Shown here one piece after another: positions 4,386 through 27,850 of a stretch of DNA of 47,465 bases. Made by a program: the position numbers and the translations under genes. Source of the stretch: Clostridia bacterium. GTDB taxonomy: Bacteria; Bacillota; Clostridia; TANB77; CAG-465. The stretch spans positions 1 through 47,465 of the forward strand of contig JAFXHJ010000005.1 in assembly GCA_017536445.1 (NCBI GenBank). The letters are read 5' to 3'. How positions within the stretch are numbered: position 1 is the stretch's first letter; the number at the start of each line of letters is the position of its first letter. The notes beneath the pieces are model-generated. The model searched no databases and was not told the origin of the DNA. It was given only the letters and a program-made list of their open reading frames with translations.

Positions 4386-5474
4386 ATGAAAAAGAATGGA
4401 ATCTCTTTAATAGTATTAGTAATCACAATAATAGTAATGATAATTTTAGCAGCAAGTGTAGTAATAACATTAAGTAATACAGGCGTAATAGATAAGGCGA
4501 ATGATGCAGTAAATTCAACGAATGATCAACAAATTCAGGAGTTAGCTGCTATGGTATGGGCTGAGTCATATATGGAAGGCTTAAGAGGGCAAGAATTAAT
4601 AGATGATGTTACAGAAAAATTGAATACTCAAAAGATAACAACAACTGATTGGTATATAAAAGTAACAGATAAAGGTGTAACTGTAAAGGAGAAAAACAAC
4701 TTAACATTAGGTGATTTAATAATAAGCGCATTAGATTATGGGAAAACAATAAATTATGTGTCAGATAATGGCGTGACTGATTGGAAAGTATTTTACCACA
4801 CAGATGATTATGTATATTTAATAGCGAGTGAAAAGATAGCTAAAGATAAGATACCAACCAACATCCCTGGTACTGTAGTAGCAGAGGATGGTATATTAAA
4901 AGAAACCGGTAATATAGGCTGGAACGGGAAAGAAGAAAACGGAAAAGGAACAATACAAAATCCTTCAATGTGGATGGCGGAGTGGAGTGATTACACAAAA
5001 AATAAAAATGCCATATGGGCGTCATTCTTAATAGACGAAAAGTATTGGGAAATATTTAAAAATACAACTGCAGAATATAGTAGATACATAGAAGGAGCGA
5101 TAGGCACACCAACGTTGGAATTGTTTGTAGCAAGCTGGAATGCAAAAAGATTACAAGAAACAAATACAAATAAAATAGAATTAACATTCTCAGCGAATGG
5201 AACCAATGGATATTATTTAAATAGTTCAACAAGTGTAAAGCTAGCTACATCAGATGATTTGTATACATGGAAAGCGGTGTTAAATGGAACTTCTATATGG
5301 TTGGCAGCTCCTTTTGGTCTTGGAACAGAGTGTGTGTTTGTAATATACGGGAATGGGACAGTCGGTAATAGAGGATATAGTCATGCATCTGATGGACTTC
5401 GACCAGTTGTATGTTTAAAATCAGATATACCAGCAAAATTAGGAACCGCAGAAACCACCGACTATGTAATATAA
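4386..5474 (+). CDS. Prepilin-like surface protein with type IV pilin N-terminus, copy 1 (362 aa)
   Basis: The N-terminus MKKNGISLIVLVITIIVMII is a short basic leader followed by a long hydrophobic helix, as in type IV/type II pseudopilins, although the usual GFTLIE cleavage motif reads NGISLIVL and lacks the +5 Glu. A following AlVWAESY-like helical stretch and then a globular domain (about 118-362) contain YGKTINY, DWKVFYHTDDYVYLIAS, GAIGTPTLELF and a terminal GLRPVVCL, a beta-rich surface domain found in many similar clostridial proteins. A clear paralogue is at 30069 and a third N-terminus is at 47088. No prepilin peptidase or pilus ATPase is in the window. RBS AAGGAGAA; it follows the helicase by 15 nt. 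Confidence 0.8.
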   Translation: MKKNGISLIVLVITIIVMIILAASVVITLSNTGVIDKANDAVNSTNDQQIQELAAMVWAESYMEGLRGQELIDDVTEKLNTQKITTTDWYIKVTDKGVTVKEKNNLTLGDLIISALDYGKTINYVSDNGVTDWKVFYHTDDYVYLIASEKIAKDKIPTNIPGTVVAEDGILKETGNIGWNGKEENGKGTIQNPSMWMAEWSDYTKNKNAIWASFLIDEKYWEIFKNTTAEYSRYIEGAIGTPTLELFVASWNAKRLQETNTNKIELTFSANGTNGYYLNSSTSVKLATSDDLYTWKAVLNGTSIWLAAPFGLGTECVFVIYGNGTVGNRGYSHASDGLRPVVCLKSDIPAKLGTAETTDYVI

Positions 5475-6231: not shown

Positions 6232-6260
6232 TTGCACTATTTTTTACTATTTGATATACT
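6232..6260 (+). promoter_or_regulatory. Promoter of the NRPS-histidine kinase operon
   Basis: TTGCAC (6232-6237), 17 bp, TATACT (6255-6260), about 35 nt before the NRPS start. Confidence 0.7.
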
Positions 6261-6294
6261 TAAACTGTATAATTGTAGGAGTAGATGAAGAATA

Positions 6295-9200
6295 ATGGAG
6301 AAATTTGAACTAACATATCCAGAAAGAAATATTTGGCTTGTTGAAACGTTTTATGACAAGCAATTAATTAATATTATATCTGGCTCTTTTGTAATTAAAA
6401 GAGACTTTAATCTGGATTTAGCAGAAAAAATGGTAAACAAATACGTAGAACTAAATGATGCTATGAGACTTAGAATAAATTTAGAAGGCGGCATACCAAA
6501 ACAGTATGTTAGTTCTTATGCGCCTTTTGTATCAGATAAAGTAAATGCACAGGGAAAATCTGAAGAAGAAATAGAAGATATAAAAGACGAATACATTAAA
6601 AAACAAATATATGTATTAGAAGATCCATTGGCATCGTTTTTATTAATAGATAGAGGAAACGGTTTAGGTGAAGTGTTTGTTAAAGTACACCATTTAGTAG
6701 GCGATGCTTGGACAATATCTAAAATGGGAACTATATTCTCTGAAATATATGAAGCATTACTAAGAGGTGAAGAATACACTAAGGAATTCCCAAGCTACGT
6801 GGATTTTATTAAAGCTGAACAAGAATATTTACTAGACGATAGATACGCGTCAGATAGTGAGTTCTGGAAAGAATATTTAACTGGTTTAGAAGAACCGGTT
6901 GGACTTAAAGATAGCGGAATAATTAAAGATACTAGAGCTAAGAGATATACAGTAGTTCTAGATGATAATTATCAAGCAATGTTAGATAATTATTGTAAAA
7001 CAAATAGAATGTCTCCATATACAGTATTTTTAACAGCACTTGCTGTGTATATGGAAAGAACAACTGGCAAACAAGATTTTGTAATTGGAACACCAGTACT
7101 TAATAGATCGAACTTCAAAGAGAAGAATATGGCAGGTATGTTTATATCTACTATGCCAGTAAGATTTAACATAGATGAATCAAAAACGTTCTTAGATATG
7201 TGTAAAGAAGCTGGAAGTGATTCTTTAACACTATTTAGACATCAAAAACATCCATATGTAAAAATATCTGAAATATACAAAAAGTTATCAGGTGTTACAG
7301 ATAATATGTACAAAGTGATGTTGTCTTACCAAAATGCAAGAGCATCTGTTGCGGTAGAAGACAAATATGAACTAAAATGGAGATTTAGTGGTCATATACA
7401 AGATGAACTTGAAATACATATTTCAGACCTTAATGCCACAGGAAATTTAGAAGTACATTTAGATTATCTAACAACTCTATTTGAAGATATAGAAATCAAA
7501 TACTTAGCTACTAGATTACTAGAAATAATTAAAGATGGAATAGAAAATAATAGTACAGTAGAAACTATTAAAATAATGACAGATGATGAAAGAAACAAAA
7601 TACTAGGAGAGTTCAATAATACTACAAGGTCCTATCCAAAGGATAAAACAGTTATAGAACTATTTGATGAACAAGTAAACGCTTATCCAAATAATATAGC
7701 ACTCAAGTTAGAAGATAAGTCTATGACATATAAAGAATTAGATATAGCTTCTAATAAGTTAGCAAATATGCTAAAAGCTAAAGGCGTAGTAATAGGTGAT
7801 GCTATAGGTATAGATATAGATAAGTCATTTGAACTTATAATAGCTATACTTGCAGTTCTTAAGACAGGAGCATATTACTTACCAGTAGAAATAAACATCG
7901 CTCATGATAAAAAAGAGTATATGTTTAAGGATGCAAACGTAAAATTTGTTTTAGAAGATCACATAGAAAATTATGAAGATATACAAGAAATATTCATAGA
8001 AGAATTAGATTATAGTAAATTACAAGATGCTAAAGTGACTTTAGATAAAGATTATACATCTTTAAGTCCAGCGTGTATATTATATACATCTGGAACTACA
8101 GGAAATCCTAAAGGTGCATTAATTACAAATATGAATATTGTAAAACTAGTTAAAAATCCAGACTATATGGAGCTTAAAGCTAGCGACACAATAATTCAAG
8201 CAGCATCAACAAGCTTTGATGTATCGTTATTTGAGTTCTTCGGAACGCTTCTAAATGGAGGTACTTGCGCATTAATAACCAAAGAAAATCTTTTAGATTT
8301 CGAGTATCTAAATAAATATATAAAAGAAGCAGGTGTTACAATTGCTTGGATTACATCAGCGTTATTTAACCAAATAATAGACGCTAAGATAGAAGTTTTT
8401 GAAACTTTACATACCGTTTTAAGTGGTGGAGATGTAATGTCTCTAAAACATGTAAACAAGTTAAGAGAAACATATAAAGACTTAACAATAATAAACTGCT
8501 ATGGACCAACAGAATGTGTAACATTTACTAATACATTTAGAGTAGATGAAACTCGTACTGTTAAAGTTCCACTTGGAAGAGCAATATCTAATACATATGG
8601 TTATGTAATAGATAAAAAGTTTAGATTACTTCCGTTATATGTAGAAGGCGAATATATAATAGGTGGAGATAGTGTAGGACTTAAATATATAAACAATGAA
8701 ACATTAACAAAAGAAAGATTTGTTGAAGATAAAATAACAAACAAAGGCAGAATGTACAAAACAGGTGATGTTGTACGTATGCTTGAAGGTGGTTATATAG
8801 ACTTTGTAGGAAGAAGAGATAACCAAGTTAAAGTTAGAGGGTATAGAATTGAGCTTGATGAAATAAAACATGCTATATACTCTTCTAAGAAGGTAGAAGA
8901 CCTATCAGTGTTTATATATGAGGATCATAATAAAACTAAGAAGATAGCAGCTATCTATACAACAAACGAAGATTTCTTGCCACAAGATATGAAGATATTC
9001 TTAAAAGATAAACTAACTTCATACAAGATACCTTCATATATAGAAAGAATGGACAAGTTACCATTAAATCAAAATGGTAAAGTTAATGTTAAAGAGTTAA
9101 TTAAACATATTCTAGAAGAATCTAAAGACATAGATGAAGAATTTGTTCCAGAATATGAAGGAATTACAAAAACAATTTATGATATGTTTAGAGATGTTTT

Positions 9201-10635
9201 GGGCCGTGAGGATATACATCCAGAAGACAGCTTCTTTGAAATAGGAGGAGATTCACTTCTTGCTATTAGACTTACAACAGAAGCGTTGGAGCATAATATA
9301 AAGATTACATTTGCGGATTTATATAAATATCCTTCTATTAAGGAACTTACAGAGTTACTTACATTAGACAATAAAAAAGCATCAATATCTGAACCATTAA
9401 AGACAAGAAGTTTTGATGAAATACACAAGCTTTTAGAAACAAATAAAATAACAGATGACATTGTTAAAGAGGATGTTAAAGAAGGTTCTATACTTCTTGC
9501 AGGAGCAACAGGATTTTTAGGATCACATATTTTAGAAGAATTATTAGTTAATACAGATAGTACAATATATTGTTTAATTAGAAAAATTAAGAATAGTGAT
9601 AAAACTCCTAAAGATAGACTTAAAGAAAAAGTTAATTTCTTCTTTGAAAATAAATATGATGATATTTTAGATACTAGAGTTAAATGCATAGAAGGCGATA
9701 TCATACTAGATAATTTAATAGTAAATGATTTAGATAGAGAAGAAGTAATTAAAAATGTTTCTATGATAATCAACTCAGCAGCGCATGTAAAACATTATGG
9801 AGATATCAATCTATTTACTAAGATTAATGCAAAAGGCGTAGAAAATCTAGCTAAGTTTGCATTAGAAAATAATATGAGATTAATCCATATTTCTACACTA
9901 AGTGTATCTGGAAACATATTAGAAGTTGGACAGCTTGATCAAGTAGACATAGAAAAAGGAACTATATATAACGAAACAAATTTATATATAGGTCAAAACT
10001 TAGACAATGTATATGCGTACACTAAATTCTTAGGGGAAGAGGTTGTATATAATTATATATTAAAAGGACTTGATGCTAAGGTTATGAGAATGGGTAATTT
10101 AACAAGCAGAATGTCTGATGGTAAATTCCAACCAAATGTAGAAGAAAACGCATTTGCAAATAGACTTAAAACGTTTGTGGATATTGGAATAATGCCTAGT
10201 AATTTAATGGACTTTAATGTTGAGTTTACACCAATAGATTTAGCAGCTAAAGCAATTAGAATATTAGCAAATACAGATAAAAAATATAATACTTATCACA
10301 TATTTAATGATAATCATATTGTAATGCATAGGTTAGATGAGATATTATATAAATTAGGATATGAATTAAAACATATTACAAAAGAACAAATGACAGAACT
10401 TATTGAATTTTATTCTAAACAAGACAATGGTTATGAAAGAATACAAGGAATAGTACAAGATGTAAATAGGAATAAAGAAATAGATTATAATCCTAACACG
10501 GTTATTAAATCAGATTTTACTAAAGACACTTTATCTAAATTTGGATTTGATTGGCCTGAAATTGATGAAGAATATATAACTAAATATATAGAATATTTAG
10601 AGAAAATAGGTTTCTTAAAAGGAGATAACAAATGA
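6295..10635 (+). CDS. Single-module nonribosomal peptide synthetase, C-A-T-thioester reductase (1446 aa)
   Basis: Domain order: condensation (about 1-430; HHLVGDAW with active His133 and Asp137), adenylation (about 445-940; LYTSGTTGNPKG, YGPTE, YKTGD, VKVRGYRIE and Lys929 in PLNQNGK), thiolation (GGDSLL, phosphopantetheine Ser987), and a terminal reductase (about 1063-1440; GATGFLG at 1070-1076, Y1240-x3-K1244). The reductase should release the product as an aldehyde or alcohol. The specificity residues read by alignment to GrsA are D-V-F-W-L-G-C-T-F-K, close to the known valine code DAFWIGGTFK, so valine or another small aliphatic residue is predicted. With only one module and an N-terminal C domain, an acylated amino aldehyde is a plausible product; the acyl donor is unknown. 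RBS AGGAG 13 nt upstream. The gene overlaps the histidine kinase by 4 nt. No phosphopantetheinyl transferase is in the window. Confidence 0.95.
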   Translation: MEKFELTYPERNIWLVETFYDKQLINIISGSFVIKRDFNLDLAEKMVNKYVELNDAMRLRINLEGGIPKQYVSSYAPFVSDKVNAQGKSEEEIEDIKDEYIKKQIYVLEDPLASFLLIDRGNGLGEVFVKVHHLVGDAWTISKMGTIFSEIYEALLRGEEYTKEFPSYVDFIKAEQEYLLDDRYASDSEFWKEYLTGLEEPVGLKDSGIIKDTRAKRYTVVLDDNYQAMLDNYCKTNRMSPYTVFLTALAVYMERTTGKQDFVIGTPVLNRSNFKEKNMAGMFISTMPVRFNIDESKTFLDMCKEAGSDSLTLFRHQKHPYVKISEIYKKLSGVTDNMYKVMLSYQNARASVAVEDKYELKWRFSGHIQDELEIHISDLNATGNLEVHLDYLTTLFEDIEIKYLATRLLEIIKDGIENNSTVETIKIMTDDERNKILGEFNNTTRSYPKDKTVIELFDEQVNAYPNNIALKLEDKSMTYKELDIASNKLANMLKAKGVVIGDAIGIDIDKSFELIIAILAVLKTGAYYLPVEINIAHDKKEYMFKDANVKFVLEDHIENYEDIQEIFIEELDYSKLQDAKVTLDKDYTSLSPACILYTSGTTGNPKGALITNMNIVKLVKNPDYMELKASDTIIQAASTSFDVSLFEFFGTLLNGGTCALITKENLLDFEYLNKYIKEAGVTIAWITSALFNQIIDAKIEVFETLHTVLSGGDVMSLKHVNKLRETYKDLTIINCYGPTECVTFTNTFRVDETRTVKVPLGRAISNTYGYVIDKKFRLLPLYVEGEYIIGGDSVGLKYINNETLTKERFVEDKITNKGRMYKTGDVVRMLEGGYIDFVGRRDNQVKVRGYRIELDEIKHAIYSSKKVEDLSVFIYEDHNKTKKIAAIYTTNEDFLPQDMKIFLKDKLTSYKIPSYIERMDKLPLNQNGKVNVKELIKHILEESKDIDEEFVPEYEGITKTIYDMFRDVLGREDIHPEDSFFEIGGDSLLAIRLTTEALEHNIKITFADLYKYPSIKELTELLTLDNKKASISEPLKTRSFDEIHKLLETNKITDDIVKEDVKEGSILLAGATGFLGSHILEELLVNTDSTIYCLIRKIKNSDKTPKDRLKEKVNFFFENKYDDILDTRVKCIEGDIILDNLIVNDLDREEVIKNVSMIINSAAHVKHYGDINLFTKINAKGVENLAKFALENNMRLIHISTLSVSGNILEVGQLDQVDIEKGTIYNETNLYIGQNLDNVYAYTKFLGEEVVYNYILKGLDAKVMRMGNLTSRMSDGKFQPNVEENAFANRLKTFVDIGIMPSNLMDFNVEFTPIDLAAKAIRILANTDKKYNTYHIFNDNHIVMHRLDEILYKLGYELKHITKEQMTELIEFYSKQDNGYERIQGIVQDVNRNKEIDYNPNTVIKSDFTKDTLSKFGFDWPEIDEEYITKYIEYLEKIGFLKGDNK

Positions 10636-12362
10636 CATCAACATATACAGTATTTTTAGTCTTACTCGGAGCATTCGTAATGCTAATGGCACTTATGGAT
10701 TCTTTAGTTAAGATAAAAAATAAAACAAATTTACATAAACACTTTGTAACATTAGTATCTTTATTTAGTATACATATATTAGGATTGCTATTACAAATAC
10801 TAATGTCGGGTACAAGTATCAAACCAATATATTTTGAGTATATAACATATATTGGCGCAATGTACTTTGGAGTAGAGATATTCTTAATAAGTGTTTTATA
10901 TAAAGATAAGAACAAAGATATAACTAAACTTAAATGGTTGTATATAATACCAACAATATTGCTTGGCATTTTATGGACAAATGATTGGCATAGTCTGTTC
11001 TATGTGAAATATTCTACAGAATTTGCAGATACAGTATTTGGTCCAGCACTATATGTATTTATGGTATATTCTTATGGATTAATAATTACATCATTTATAT
11101 CAATGGTAAGAGTATCAATAAAGCAATCAGGATTCTTCTCGCCACAATCAGCATTAATTATACTTGGAGCCTTAGTTCCGCTTATATCTAATGCAATGGG
11201 AGCTTTAAGAATAGTAGAGAGCAATGTTTATGTTATGCCAATCACATTCTCGGTAACAGCAATGTTATATTACATAGCAATATTCCATCTTAAAGCTTTG
11301 AATATGATACCTGTATCATTTAAGACAATAGTGGACAGTATGTCAGATTCGTTCGTTGTTGTTAGCGATGATGGTACTATAGTAGACTTAAACAAAACAT
11401 TTATAGATAACTTTAAGAAGTTTGGTGAAGTTCATGATAAAGATAATCTTTATGAATGGATGAAACAAAAAGGATTTGTAGATTTGAAATCTGTAAAAAA
11501 AGATATAGCTGAAGCAAGAAAAACTAGAGATGTAATTACAAAGGAATATCATATAAAGCAAGATGAATACGATAAATACTTTGAAGTAGAATATCAACCG
11601 ATAAAAGCAAAACACAGTAATGAATTTGTTGCCACACTTATACTTTTAAGAGATGTAACAACTCTTAAAAAAGATACAGAGATAATGCTTAAAAATGAGT
11701 CTTTAGTAATGCTAGGAGAACTAGCAGGAGGAGTTGCGCATGATATAAATACTCCAATATCTGCCATAAAGAGTGGCCTTTTAATGTTAAAAGAAACTGT
11801 TAAGAGTGAAGATGAAAAAATGCTTGTAGAAAGAATGGATAGTTGTGCTACAAAGATAGTTACTCTTACAAATAGCTTAAGAAACCAAATTAGAAATATT
11901 GGTAGTGATGAAGTTATGGATGTAAATGTGACAACAGTTATAAATGATATGGCTACAATTATTCACAATGATTTAACTAAACATAGAGTTAAATTAAATT
12001 TAGATATTAAAGAGGATATAATAGTAAAAGGAAATCCAGCCAAATTATCTCAAGTAGTTACAAACATAGTTGTAAATGCTATACAAGCATATGAAGATAA
12101 AGGCGGAGAAATAAACCTTAAGGTATATAAAAATGCTAAAGAGGTTGTTATATCAGTAGAAGATTTTGCTGGAGGTATTCCAGAACATATACGTGAAAGT
12201 ATAGGAAAGAACATCCTTACTACAAAAGGAGTTTCTGGAACTGGTTTTGGACTTTATCTTGCATATTCAGTAATTAAAGGTGCTTTTGGCGGCGAAATTA
12301 GATTTGATACGGAAGTTGGAAAAGGAACAACATTCTATATTACAATACCAAATGGAAAATAA
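10632..12362 (+). CDS. 7TM-PAS sensor histidine kinase coupled to the NRPS (576 aa)
   Basis: The first ~235 residues are a series of about seven hydrophobic helices, matching the histidine-kinase N-terminal 7TM sensor type. Next come a PAS domain (about 240-350, DSMSDSFVVVSDDGTIVDLN), a HisKA domain with phospho-accepting His370 in GGVAHDINTPI, and a HATPase domain with the N-box NIVVNAIQAY, a G1 box read as EDFAGGIPEHI (Asp present, one Gly altered) and the G2 box GTGFGLYLA. The start ATG overlaps the NRPS stop (ATGA), which indicates translational coupling. A strong bidirectional terminator closes the operon. No response regulator is adjacent, so the partner is elsewhere. Context suggests it senses the NRPS product or its inducing condition; this is inference. 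Confidence 0.92.
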   Translation: MTSTYTVFLVLLGAFVMLMALMDSLVKIKNKTNLHKHFVTLVSLFSIHILGLLLQILMSGTSIKPIYFEYITYIGAMYFGVEIFLISVLYKDKNKDITKLKWLYIIPTILLGILWTNDWHSLFYVKYSTEFADTVFGPALYVFMVYSYGLIITSFISMVRVSIKQSGFFSPQSALIILGALVPLISNAMGALRIVESNVYVMPITFSVTAMLYYIAIFHLKALNMIPVSFKTIVDSMSDSFVVVSDDGTIVDLNKTFIDNFKKFGEVHDKDNLYEWMKQKGFVDLKSVKKDIAEARKTRDVITKEYHIKQDEYDKYFEVEYQPIKAKHSNEFVATLILLRDVTTLKKDTEIMLKNESLVMLGELAGGVAHDINTPISAIKSGLLMLKETVKSEDEKMLVERMDSCATKIVTLTNSLRNQIRNIGSDEVMDVNVTTVINDMATIIHNDLTKHRVKLNLDIKEDIIVKGNPAKLSQVVTNIVVNAIQAYEDKGGEINLKVYKNAKEVVISVEDFAGGIPEHIRESIGKNILTTKGVSGTGFGLYLAYSVIKGAFGGEIRFDTEVGKGTTFYITIPNGK

Positions 12363-12382
12363 AAAGAAATTGTATAAAATAG

Positions 12383-12412
12383 AAGAGAGATAAGCTTATG
12401 CTTATCTCTCTT
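12383..12412. terminator. Bidirectional terminator between the NRPS operon and a convergent gene
   Basis: Perfect 13-bp stem AAGAGAGATAAGC / GCTTATCTCTCTT with a TTAT loop. A short T-rich run follows on both strands. Confidence 0.8.
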
Positions 12413-13380: not shown

Positions 13381-13409
13381 ATTATATCATAAATGTAGTT
13401 AGATTTCAA
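13381..13409 (-). promoter_or_regulatory. Promoter for the unknown gene at 12430-13329
   Basis: Minus strand: TTGAAA (13404-13409), 17 bp, TATAAT (13381-13386). It overlaps the last codons of the asparagine-synthetase-like gene. Confidence 0.8.
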
Positions 13410-15069
13410 TTTTTATGTCAAACTCTATTAACCACATATTTACTTGTATTAGGTACGCTAAAGTTTGTGGGTATGTCATAAGTTGGCCGAACCAATTTTC
13501 TTTAATGTTAGTACCATGAGATTCTAATAAATTGTATAGAAATTCTACATTAATTATTTTTAGTAATGGAGAAGTAGAATTATCAAGGATATTTTTAATT
13601 TCTTTTTCTAATAATTCTAAATACTTAGGGTCATAGGTTTTAGGGAATGGAGATTTCTTTCTATATACAATACTTTCTGGCAAATCTTTTTCAAAAGCCT
13701 TACGAAGAATATATTTTTCTACAGGTGTATTATTTGATTCTAATCCAAGTTTTCTTTTAGCAGATATATTATATATATATTCAAAAAGCTTATAATCCGC
13801 AAAAGGCGTTCTTACATCTATTCCAACATAATTCGCCATACGTTCAGTCCTTTCTATAAGACACATCATAAACCATTTAATAGTGTTAGAACAGTTATAT
13901 GAAAAGACATTTTCAAAATCTAAATCATCATTAGAAGTAACCTTGTTTTTAATATATTCTTCTAAATATTCTTTAGAAACAATATTTGTATTTAATATAT
14001 TTTCTCTAAGTTCTAAAGATTTAGCCCAAGGAAACGGGTAAGAATGCATTAGATTTTCTTTATAATACCAAGGGTAACCACCAAATATTTCATCAGAGCA
14101 TTCACCAGATAGAATTGTATTTATTCCGTCTTGCTTAATACTTTTTAAAAAGAGAAGAATAGACGAATCTACATCGGCCATACCGGGCATTTCTCTTGCA
14201 AGCATTGCATCTTTAAGGGAATTAAATAAATCTTTAGCAGAAAATGTAAAAGTAGTATGTATTGTATTTAGCTTATCTGCCATAATTTTAACAAAGTCTT
14301 TATCTTGCGTGGGTTGGTAACTAGAGCCTGTAAAGTTTATGTTGTTATTTTCATAATCTATAGAGTAGGTTTTAAGGCTGTTTGTTTCTTTGGCAGCAAG
14401 CATAGTTAGAATACTTGAGTCTAAACCACCAGATAACATTGAAGCACAACCTAAAGAAAAGTCCCTTTTAAAGGCTGAAATTACTAATTCTTTAGACGTA
14501 TTTATATTTTCTTCTATTGTTTCTAGATTTTTATGTTCTTTTAAATCCCAATAACAGAATTCTTTAAATCTGTCTTTGTTAAGTATGGCGTAGTGACCAG
14601 GCTGGATTTTAAATATGTCTTTGAAATATGTTTTACCAGGTGTATGAGCAGGGCCGAACCCAAATATTTCGCATATCTCATCTTTAGATATACATGCCTT
14701 AATAGATGAATTAGAAAGAAGTTCTTGGATGGTATTAGAAAATATAAATTCATCTGGTGTAGAAGAATAATATAATGGCTTTGTACTGAATTTATCCGCT
14801 GCAAGAAATACTTCTTTGTTCTTAAAATCTATTATACCTATAGAGAAACTACCATCAATATGGTTTAAGAAGTCTTCACCGAAGGTGGTGTATAAATTTA
14901 ATATGGTTTTAGCAGTCTCAGACTCAATTAGATGCATTTTTTTATTACAAACGCTAAATAATCTCCCGGAAAAGAAAACTATATAGTTTTCTGTTTTAAC
15001 CGCTTGACCTGCAAAGTTAATATTACTAGGTGTAATATTATATTCTAAAATATGACCAAAATATTTCAT
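13399..15069 (-). CDS. Asparagine-synthetase-like protein without the catalytic N-terminal Cys (556 aa)
   Basis: The C-terminal ATP-pyrophosphatase domain is intact: PP-loop SGGLDSS (213-219) and GECSDEIFGGYPWY (from 322; usually GEGSDE). The N-terminal part resembles the class II glutamine amidotransferase of AsnB (IDGSFSIGIIDFKNKEVFLA, DKFSTKPLYY) but begins MKYFGHILEY, so the required Cys2 is missing. Glutamine hydrolysis is therefore unlikely; ammonia use or another amidation/adenylation chemistry is possible. The start at 15069 is preferred to an ATG 39 nt upstream because GGAGGTACAT sits just before it. Length is near AsnB (about 550-630). It stands alone; AsnB-like proteins of this kind also occur in exopolysaccharide and peptide-tailoring loci. 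Confidence 0.85.
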   Translation of the reverse strand: MKYFGHILEYNITPSNINFAGQAVKTENYIVFFSGRLFSVCNKKMHLIESETAKTILNLYTTFGEDFLNHIDGSFSIGIIDFKNKEVFLAADKFSTKPLYYSSTPDEFIFSNTIQELLSNSSIKACISKDEICEIFGFGPAHTPGKTYFKDIFKIQPGHYAILNKDRFKEFCYWDLKEHKNLETIEENINTSKELVISAFKRDFSLGCASMLSGGLDSSILTMLAAKETNSLKTYSIDYENNNINFTGSSYQPTQDKDFVKIMADKLNTIHTTFTFSAKDLFNSLKDAMLAREMPGMADVDSSILLFLKSIKQDGINTILSGECSDEIFGGYPWYYKENLMHSYPFPWAKSLELRENILNTNIVSKEYLEEYIKNKVTSNDDLDFENVFSYNCSNTIKWFMMCLIERTERMANYVGIDVRTPFADYKLFEYIYNISAKRKLGLESNNTPVEKYILRKAFEKDLPESIVYRKKSPFPKTYDPKYLELLEKEIKNILDNSTSPLLKIINVEFLYNLLESHGTNIKENWFGQLMTYPQTLAYLIQVNMWLIEFDIKIEI

Positions 15070-15148
15070 ATGTACCTCCATAAATATATAATAATATATA
15101 TTTAACAAATGGAGTTAATATTCATAAATGGTTAATATATGTACAAGT

Positions 15149-27700: not shown

Positions 27701-27720
27701 TAATATAGAATTAAATAAAA

Positions 27721-27812
27721 CCTTATTAAGAGTGACTGAGGGACAGGCCCTGTGAAGTCCAGCAACCTATTAGGTTAGGTGCTAAATCCTGCGGTTTAAC
27801 CGGAAGATGAGG
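27721..27812 (+). ncRNA. SAM-I (S-box) riboswitch aptamer
   Basis: The P1 stem CCTTAT (27721-27726) pairs with ATGAGG (27807-27812). Inside are the conserved S-box segments AAGAGTGACTGAGGGACAGG, GCCCTGTGAAG, CAGCAACCT and a GGTGCTAAATCCTGC arm. When SAM is bound, the downstream terminator should form and shut off metK. Confidence 0.93.
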
Positions 27813-27850
27813 AAATAAAACACTCTGGGTTAAACTAGAGTGTTTTATTT
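27813..27850 (+). terminator. SAM-I riboswitch expression-platform terminator
   Basis: Perfect 14-bp stem AAATAAAACACTCT / AGAGTGTTTTATTT with a 10-nt loop; the T-rich half is in the 3' arm. It lies immediately after P1, 33 nt before the metK start. Confidence 0.85.

Follow-up and report, generated by a model that had tools for sequence, protein, structure and literature searches.

In this study, we observed that the A-T-R domains of an NRPS and the membrane sensor of the adjacent histidine kinase were replaced as one block in three lineages. The kinase core firmly follows the species tree, and the C domain of the NRPS follows it less firmly. The gene pair lies in a 47,465-nt stretch of DNA (the window, meaning the whole stretch) from a genome of 1.3 Mb (G000; G numbers denote genomes and L numbers loci). 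Coupling of the two genes and a functional link between them are well supported, and self-sensing would be the best, albeit unproved, explanation. We consider it fairly probable that a diffusible aldehyde made by the NRPS, or a derivative of it, is sensed by the adjacent kinase, which would act via c-di-GMP-type regulators, the pair forming a make-and-sense module.

Joint exchange of synthase and sensor parts

Within the window's family, kinases with an alternative sensor were detected in G008, G012 and G013, which represent three lineages. By GyrB, the species relative of G008 is G004 and those of G013 are G018 and G019. The kinase-core tree groups G008 with G004 (100/97), G013 with G018/G019 (92/89) and G012 with G003 (97/89), and the C-domain tree groups G012 with G003 (92/92) and, more weakly, G013 with G018/G019/G027 (81/90). 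The A domains of G008, G012 and G013 are united with each other (100/100), as are their R domains (100/100). In AU tests, uniting the three kinase cores was rejected (p=2e-4), and so was placing the R domains with their species neighbours (p from 4e-7 downward); uniting the three C domains was not rejected at 5% (p=0.065). Between G013 and its species neighbour G018, identity is highest in the kinase core (84-90%), followed by the C domain (48-68%), A-T-R (about 31%) and the sensor (2-20%), and the identity profile breaks sharply near residue 400 in each of the two proteins, NRPS and kinase. The core being conserved, the putative parts for making and for sensing a signal vary together, as in a polymorphic specificity system, the 5' border of the block being weakly shown. 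From such an exchangeable block, it should be predictable which producers match which listeners.

A comparable signal was found within the 7TM kinases, for which distances were correlated in 12 genomes. Core distance tracks species (r=0.84), whereas A-domain distance does not (r=-0.02). Beyond species and core, sensor distance tracks the A domain (r=0.35, p=0.014) and the R domain (r=0.29, p=0.045) in these genomes, but not the C domain. When R distance was also removed, the correlation between sensor and A domain was no longer significant (r=0.21, p=0.12); thus the block co-varies, not the A domain alone. The associations, block exchange and correlations alike, were spotted first and tested afterwards.

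Recombination between conserved flanks could swap the sensor and A-T-R without any matching to a ligand, the joint exchange then being a by-product of linkage. The block is indeed contiguous, and its borders lie in more conserved parts (the C domain and DHp/CA). However, sensor type follows the type of assembly line across the order: among the top-ranked matches listed, and with kinship ignored, a multi-module NRPS stands in 0 of 24 alternative-sensor pairs vs 40 of 58 7TM pairs. Moreover, the A domains of G008, G012 and G013 read D-L-T-K-I-G-E-V-G(-K), which we take to be the Asn code, and beside Asn-type NRPSs of the window's family no 7TM kinase was seen. We therefore hold the linkage explanation to be quite improbable and prefer matching of the sensor to the product. 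G031 has an alternative sensor, yet a different A code.

Organization of the operon

Both genes form the two-gene unit that the preliminary description had proposed, with a start/stop overlap and a ribosome-binding-like motif ahead of the kinase start (Table 1). Its terminator at 12383 was recovered as well, and a scan that includes both operon-flanking stems found 8 terminator-like stems vs 1.7 expected. The promoter that it placed at 6232 could not be upheld: this site scored below the threshold of the scan, and the region shows no excess of promoter-like sites (35 vs 42 in shuffles). The closest record found, with 98% identity over the kinase, belongs to a sheep-rectum MAG of the Clostridia (L031).

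Table 1. Features of the NRPS-kinase operon in the window.
Feature	Position	Strand	Basis or remark
Terminator-like stem-loop	6175..6208	+	15 pairs and T tract; ends upstream transcription unit (guanylate-kinase-like gene)
One-module reductase NRPS, 1446 aa, C-A-T-R	6295..10635	+	ORF list, Pfam, motif check
Condensation domain, residues 11-437	6325..7605	+	PF00668
Adenylation domain, residues 457-929	7663..9081	+	PF00501, PF13193
Thiolation (carrier) domain with GGDSL	9172..9360	+	PF00550
Thioester reductase domain, residues 1068-1441	9496..10617	+	PF07993
AGGAG, ribosome-binding-like, for kinase	10620..10624	+	Read directly; inside NRPS 3' end
ATGA start/stop overlap (translational coupling)	10632..10635	+	ORF coordinates, sequence
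7TM-PAS sensor histidine kinase, 576 aa	10632..12362	+	ORF list, Pfam, hydropathy
7TM sensor region	10659..11312	+	PF16927; half exchanged with NRPS A-T-R in relatives
PAS domain of kinase	11331..11669	+	PF08448, just under gathering score
Kinase core, HisKA and HATPase_c	11712..12353	+	PF00512, PF02518; follows species tree
Bidirectional terminator-like stem closing operon	12383..12412	.	13 pairs

The C-A-T-R architecture read earlier was confirmed by four Pfam domains (Condensation, AMP-binding, PP-binding and NAD_binding_4) and intact catalytic motifs (HHLVGD, GGDSL, GATGFLG and YAYTK) in one chain, which identify a reductase-terminated NRPS. The reductase domain matches TIGR01746 below the cut-off of that profile, as well as the AusA and 6vtj reductase structures, and the solved chain nearest to the A domain is module 1 of the linear gramicidin synthase LgrA. 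The A-domain code, read by hand, is D-V-F-W-L-G-C-T-F-K, presumably Val- or aliphatic-like. The NRPS would load one amino acid, tentatively an aliphatic one such as Val. With the C domain N-terminal in the sole module, the donor should be an acyl group, a putative starter role in which this domain would probably N-acylate the loaded amino acid. Judged by its domains, the NRPS should release an aldehyde-type molecule; the reductase would yield a small aldehyde, or else an alcohol or condensation product, and the domain order would allow a peptide aldehyde or pyrazinone.

In the kinase, HisKA_7TM (PF16927) scores 103.9 vs a gathering score of 28.6 bits, HisKA and HATPase_c are over their cut-offs, and PAS_4 is just under its gathering score. 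A hydropathy count gave exactly 7 TM segments, and the HDINTP motif and the N, G1 and G2 boxes are intact, so that the 7TM-PAS sensor kinase of the preliminary description stands. Potentially, its membrane sensor binds the NRPS product or a close derivative, upon which the kinase would autophosphorylate at His370.

Conservation of the gene pair

A clear relative of the kinase is present in 21 of the 36 family genomes, and the NRPS in 19 of the 36, in addition to one fragment at a contig edge (G032). All 19 full NRPSs are followed directly, on the same strand, by the kinase, and the spacing ranges from -41 to +36 nt in pairs with two complete genes; genes beyond the pair differ among these genomes. 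The family NRPSs have one module (about 1400-1465 aa) or two (about 2400-2480 aa). Not every operon is intact, as the N-terminal part of the NRPS in L046 (G029) is broken by stops. Two genomes, G020 (L059) and G022 (L057), have the kinase without the NRPS and keep an intact REC protein in trans; possibly, they are listeners that do not produce.

Across the order, 385 genomes were surveyed (NRPS E<1e-100, kinase E<1e-40), of which 288 gave an NRPS match and 166 a kinase match. Among the matches listed, the kinase adjoins the NRPS at 60 of 61 places in genomes with a listed kinase. The exception is G221 (L195), in which NRPS, alternative-sensor kinase, 7TM kinase and REC-HD-GYP gene stand in a row. 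When 20 NRPSs without a 7TM kinase match were sampled, all were found to carry a related kinase of 650-680 aa with another membrane sensor; a REC-HD-GYP gene is directly next in 15 of these loci and close by in 1 more. The same NRPS-kinase-REC-HD-GYP order was seen in nine loci examined from other families of the class, and in some of them a thioesterase replaces the reductase of the NRPS. No transporter, tailoring or immunity gene is common to the loci, whose shared content is synthase and receptor (and regulator). The product would leave the cell without a dedicated transporter.

The preliminary description had suggested signalling by the pair, to be supported if the two genes are conserved together and coevolve, and refuted if the pair is unique to this genome and homologous NRPSs lack a kinase. 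The latter outcome did not occur. The former agrees with the adjacency, which is near-universal in the order, with a co-loss in one clade, and with the joint exchange of A-T-R and sensor.

Regulator partner and output

The kinase had been described as an orphan with no response regulator beside it. This is correct for the genome studied here, as a REC-HD-GYP gene directly after the kinase is absent in the window; it does not apply to most relatives outside the family, which have one directly downstream (15 of 20 sampled order loci and several class loci). Since a REC-HD-GYP gene usually follows the kinase outside the family, the orphan state is, judged from this distribution, a local loss. The kinase cannot be called an orphan in general: as a rule it is partnered by a REC-HD-GYP protein, and in the genome studied here probably by a REC-pseudokinase in trans.

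In most relatives, the phosphate would pass to the operonic REC-HD-GYP protein, which retains both the Asp of REC and the HHExxDGxGYP motif wherever readable. The HD-GYP protein of the window's family appears to have moved out of the operon, and its phospho-Asp is lost. This family protein (P0004) has Asn in place of the phosphorylatable Asp of REC in 25 of 25 aligned genomes (L080-L104); on this ground, and since its identity is untied to the kinase, it was rejected as a target in trans. Besides three further kinases that have regulators beside them, G000 encodes several unpaired REC proteins; an orphan Spo0A-like regulator on contig C15 was considered as another candidate partner.

The likely partner of the window's kinase, by sequence comparison, is P0003, a REC-pseudokinase encoded in trans on contig C18. 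It combines a REC domain with a degenerate kinase-like half that has Glu at the phospho-His position and matches the operon kinases with 95% probability over 157 columns in a profile comparison. Strong P0003 orthologues occur in 22 of the 36 family genomes, namely the 21 with the kinase and G032, and the Asp/Lys pocket of the P0003-type REC is kept in 22 of 22 operon genomes. The remaining family genomes encode a protein of similar length and 22-26% identity; in G002, the one neighbourhood read, it adjoins the same undecaprenyl-diphosphatase-like gene. REC Asp, acidic pocket and Lys are lost in 13 of 13 examined genomes without the operon. Those genomes with decayed REC that the GyrB tree includes fall into a single clade, so that this represents one loss event, not thirteen. 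The kinase core tracks the P0003 REC beyond species (r=0.58, p=0.0002), and in G044 the third operon gene aligns over the full P0003 length (22%) with conserved REC residues. A 217-225 aa gene convergent with many kinases was also considered as a regulator and rejected, as it encodes an endonuclease III-like HhH-GPD protein and reflects synteny.

A search of 57 genomes found GGDEF proteins in 54; the one in the genome of the window reads GGDEY. In G701 (L209, 5201-10837), an N-terminal region containing a canonical-looking PilZ domain is fused to a C-A-T-TE NRPS, followed by kinase and REC-HD-GYP genes; in L210 and L216, the kinase and REC-HD-GYP genes occur without an NRPS, preceded by a separate 543 aa protein with homology to this N-terminal region of G701. 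HD-GYP motifs, GGDEF proteins and the PilZ fusion point to c-di-GMP, whose turnover is probably the output.

The PilZ domain of G701 could let c-di-GMP act on synthesis. This would suit a kinase that senses another cue (host, envelope or nutrient) and serves as a dedicated switch of the NRPS, the product being a regulated metabolite, e.g., a protease inhibitor, and not a self-sensed signal. Kinases that neighbour biosynthetic clusters frequently act as plain regulators, and the kinase persists alone in G020 and G022. However, there is no reason why the sensor of an outside cue should change along with the A-T-R domains of the NRPS, and no recognised DNA-binding domain was found in the regulator outputs. 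We regard sensing of another cue as unlikely, and self-sensing as the preferred reading. It is tempting to speculate that the latter extends to clostridial signalling across the class, with reductase NRPS products as autoinducers, exchangeable A-T-R/sensor cassettes that define signalling groups, and a c-di-GMP output; we lean slightly against this wider proposal.

Comparison with known systems

In agr (AgrBDC/A) and ComQXPA, variation in the signal-synthesis genes is matched by variation in the sensor half of the kinase, while kinase core and regulator are conserved. The putative specificity parts described here likewise co-vary beside a conserved kinase core. However, agr and ComQXPA have ribosomal peptide signals and DNA-binding regulators, as opposed to an NRPS with HD-GYP or pseudokinase regulators. 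CqsA/CqsS and LqsA/LqsS combine a small-molecule synthase with a multi-TM sensor kinase next to it; CqsA and LqsA are single PLP enzymes that make alpha-hydroxyketones. From their descriptions, they are alike in gene arrangement.

The best NCBIfam profile for the window's NRPS is that of Staphylococcus aureus AusA (aureusimine synthetase), which has a homologous reductase; at 788 vs a cut-off of 2500 bits for the whole protein, the NRPS is not an AusA equivalog (NF047350). We take AusA to be dimodular and to begin with an A domain, and we know of no kinase linked to it. Of the small-molecule genes in gut Clostridia, those for reductase NRPSs rank among the best known, and they are mostly discussed as producers of protease inhibitors. 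The peptide-aldehyde and pyrazinone NRPSs of these bacteria are likewise reductase-terminated; their reports are framed in terms of protease inhibition, whereas the NRPS described here is linked to a kinase. A starting C domain is reportedly found in several of these clusters, in the work of Guo et al. 2017 and, for ruminopeptin, of Schneider and Balskus 2018. If the first target of the product were the receptor of the same operon, these molecules would be bacterial signals, a function that is testable. Literature searches for a link of NRPS, kinase and HD-GYP gave nothing relevant, and no earlier description was found in the papers available.

In a review that covers these compounds, dipeptide aldehydes are reported as the active form of reductase NRPS products and as reactive protease inhibitors, and the word "kinase" is absent (0 matches) (PMC12327764). 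The reactivity of such aldehydes raises the alternative of self-protection or feedback, in which the kinase would respond to a build-up of the aldehyde, or to the damage it causes, by limiting synthesis, and would play no role between cells. Co-expression of synthase and sensor through the overlap would serve this purpose, but no detoxifying or efflux gene stands alongside the pair and the regulator is a c-di-GMP-type enzyme, which makes this explanation very improbable and favours a make-and-sense module. An NRPS also contributes to the synthesis of a small autoinducer in the Pvf/ham signalling systems of Proteobacteria (PMC10194917; valdiazen, PMC5878181). The Pvf cluster is reported to include an N-oxygenase and no kinase, and the Pvf receptor to be unknown (PMC10194917).

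Flanking genes

Genes with a pilin-like N-terminus (GISLIVLVITIIVM) adjoin the operon at varying places (window, 4386-5474; L044, 11299-13119; L046, 6823-8184; L047, 3080-5266). An Asn-synthase-like gene at 13399-15108 (-) was rejected as a tailoring enzyme, as it lies on the opposite strand and outside the terminator. In L060, a fragment that looks similar to this gene is found at a distance of some 8-10 kb from the NRPS. Elsewhere in the window, a SAM riboswitch is present at 27720-27813 (+) (Rfam RF00162, 77.2 bits).
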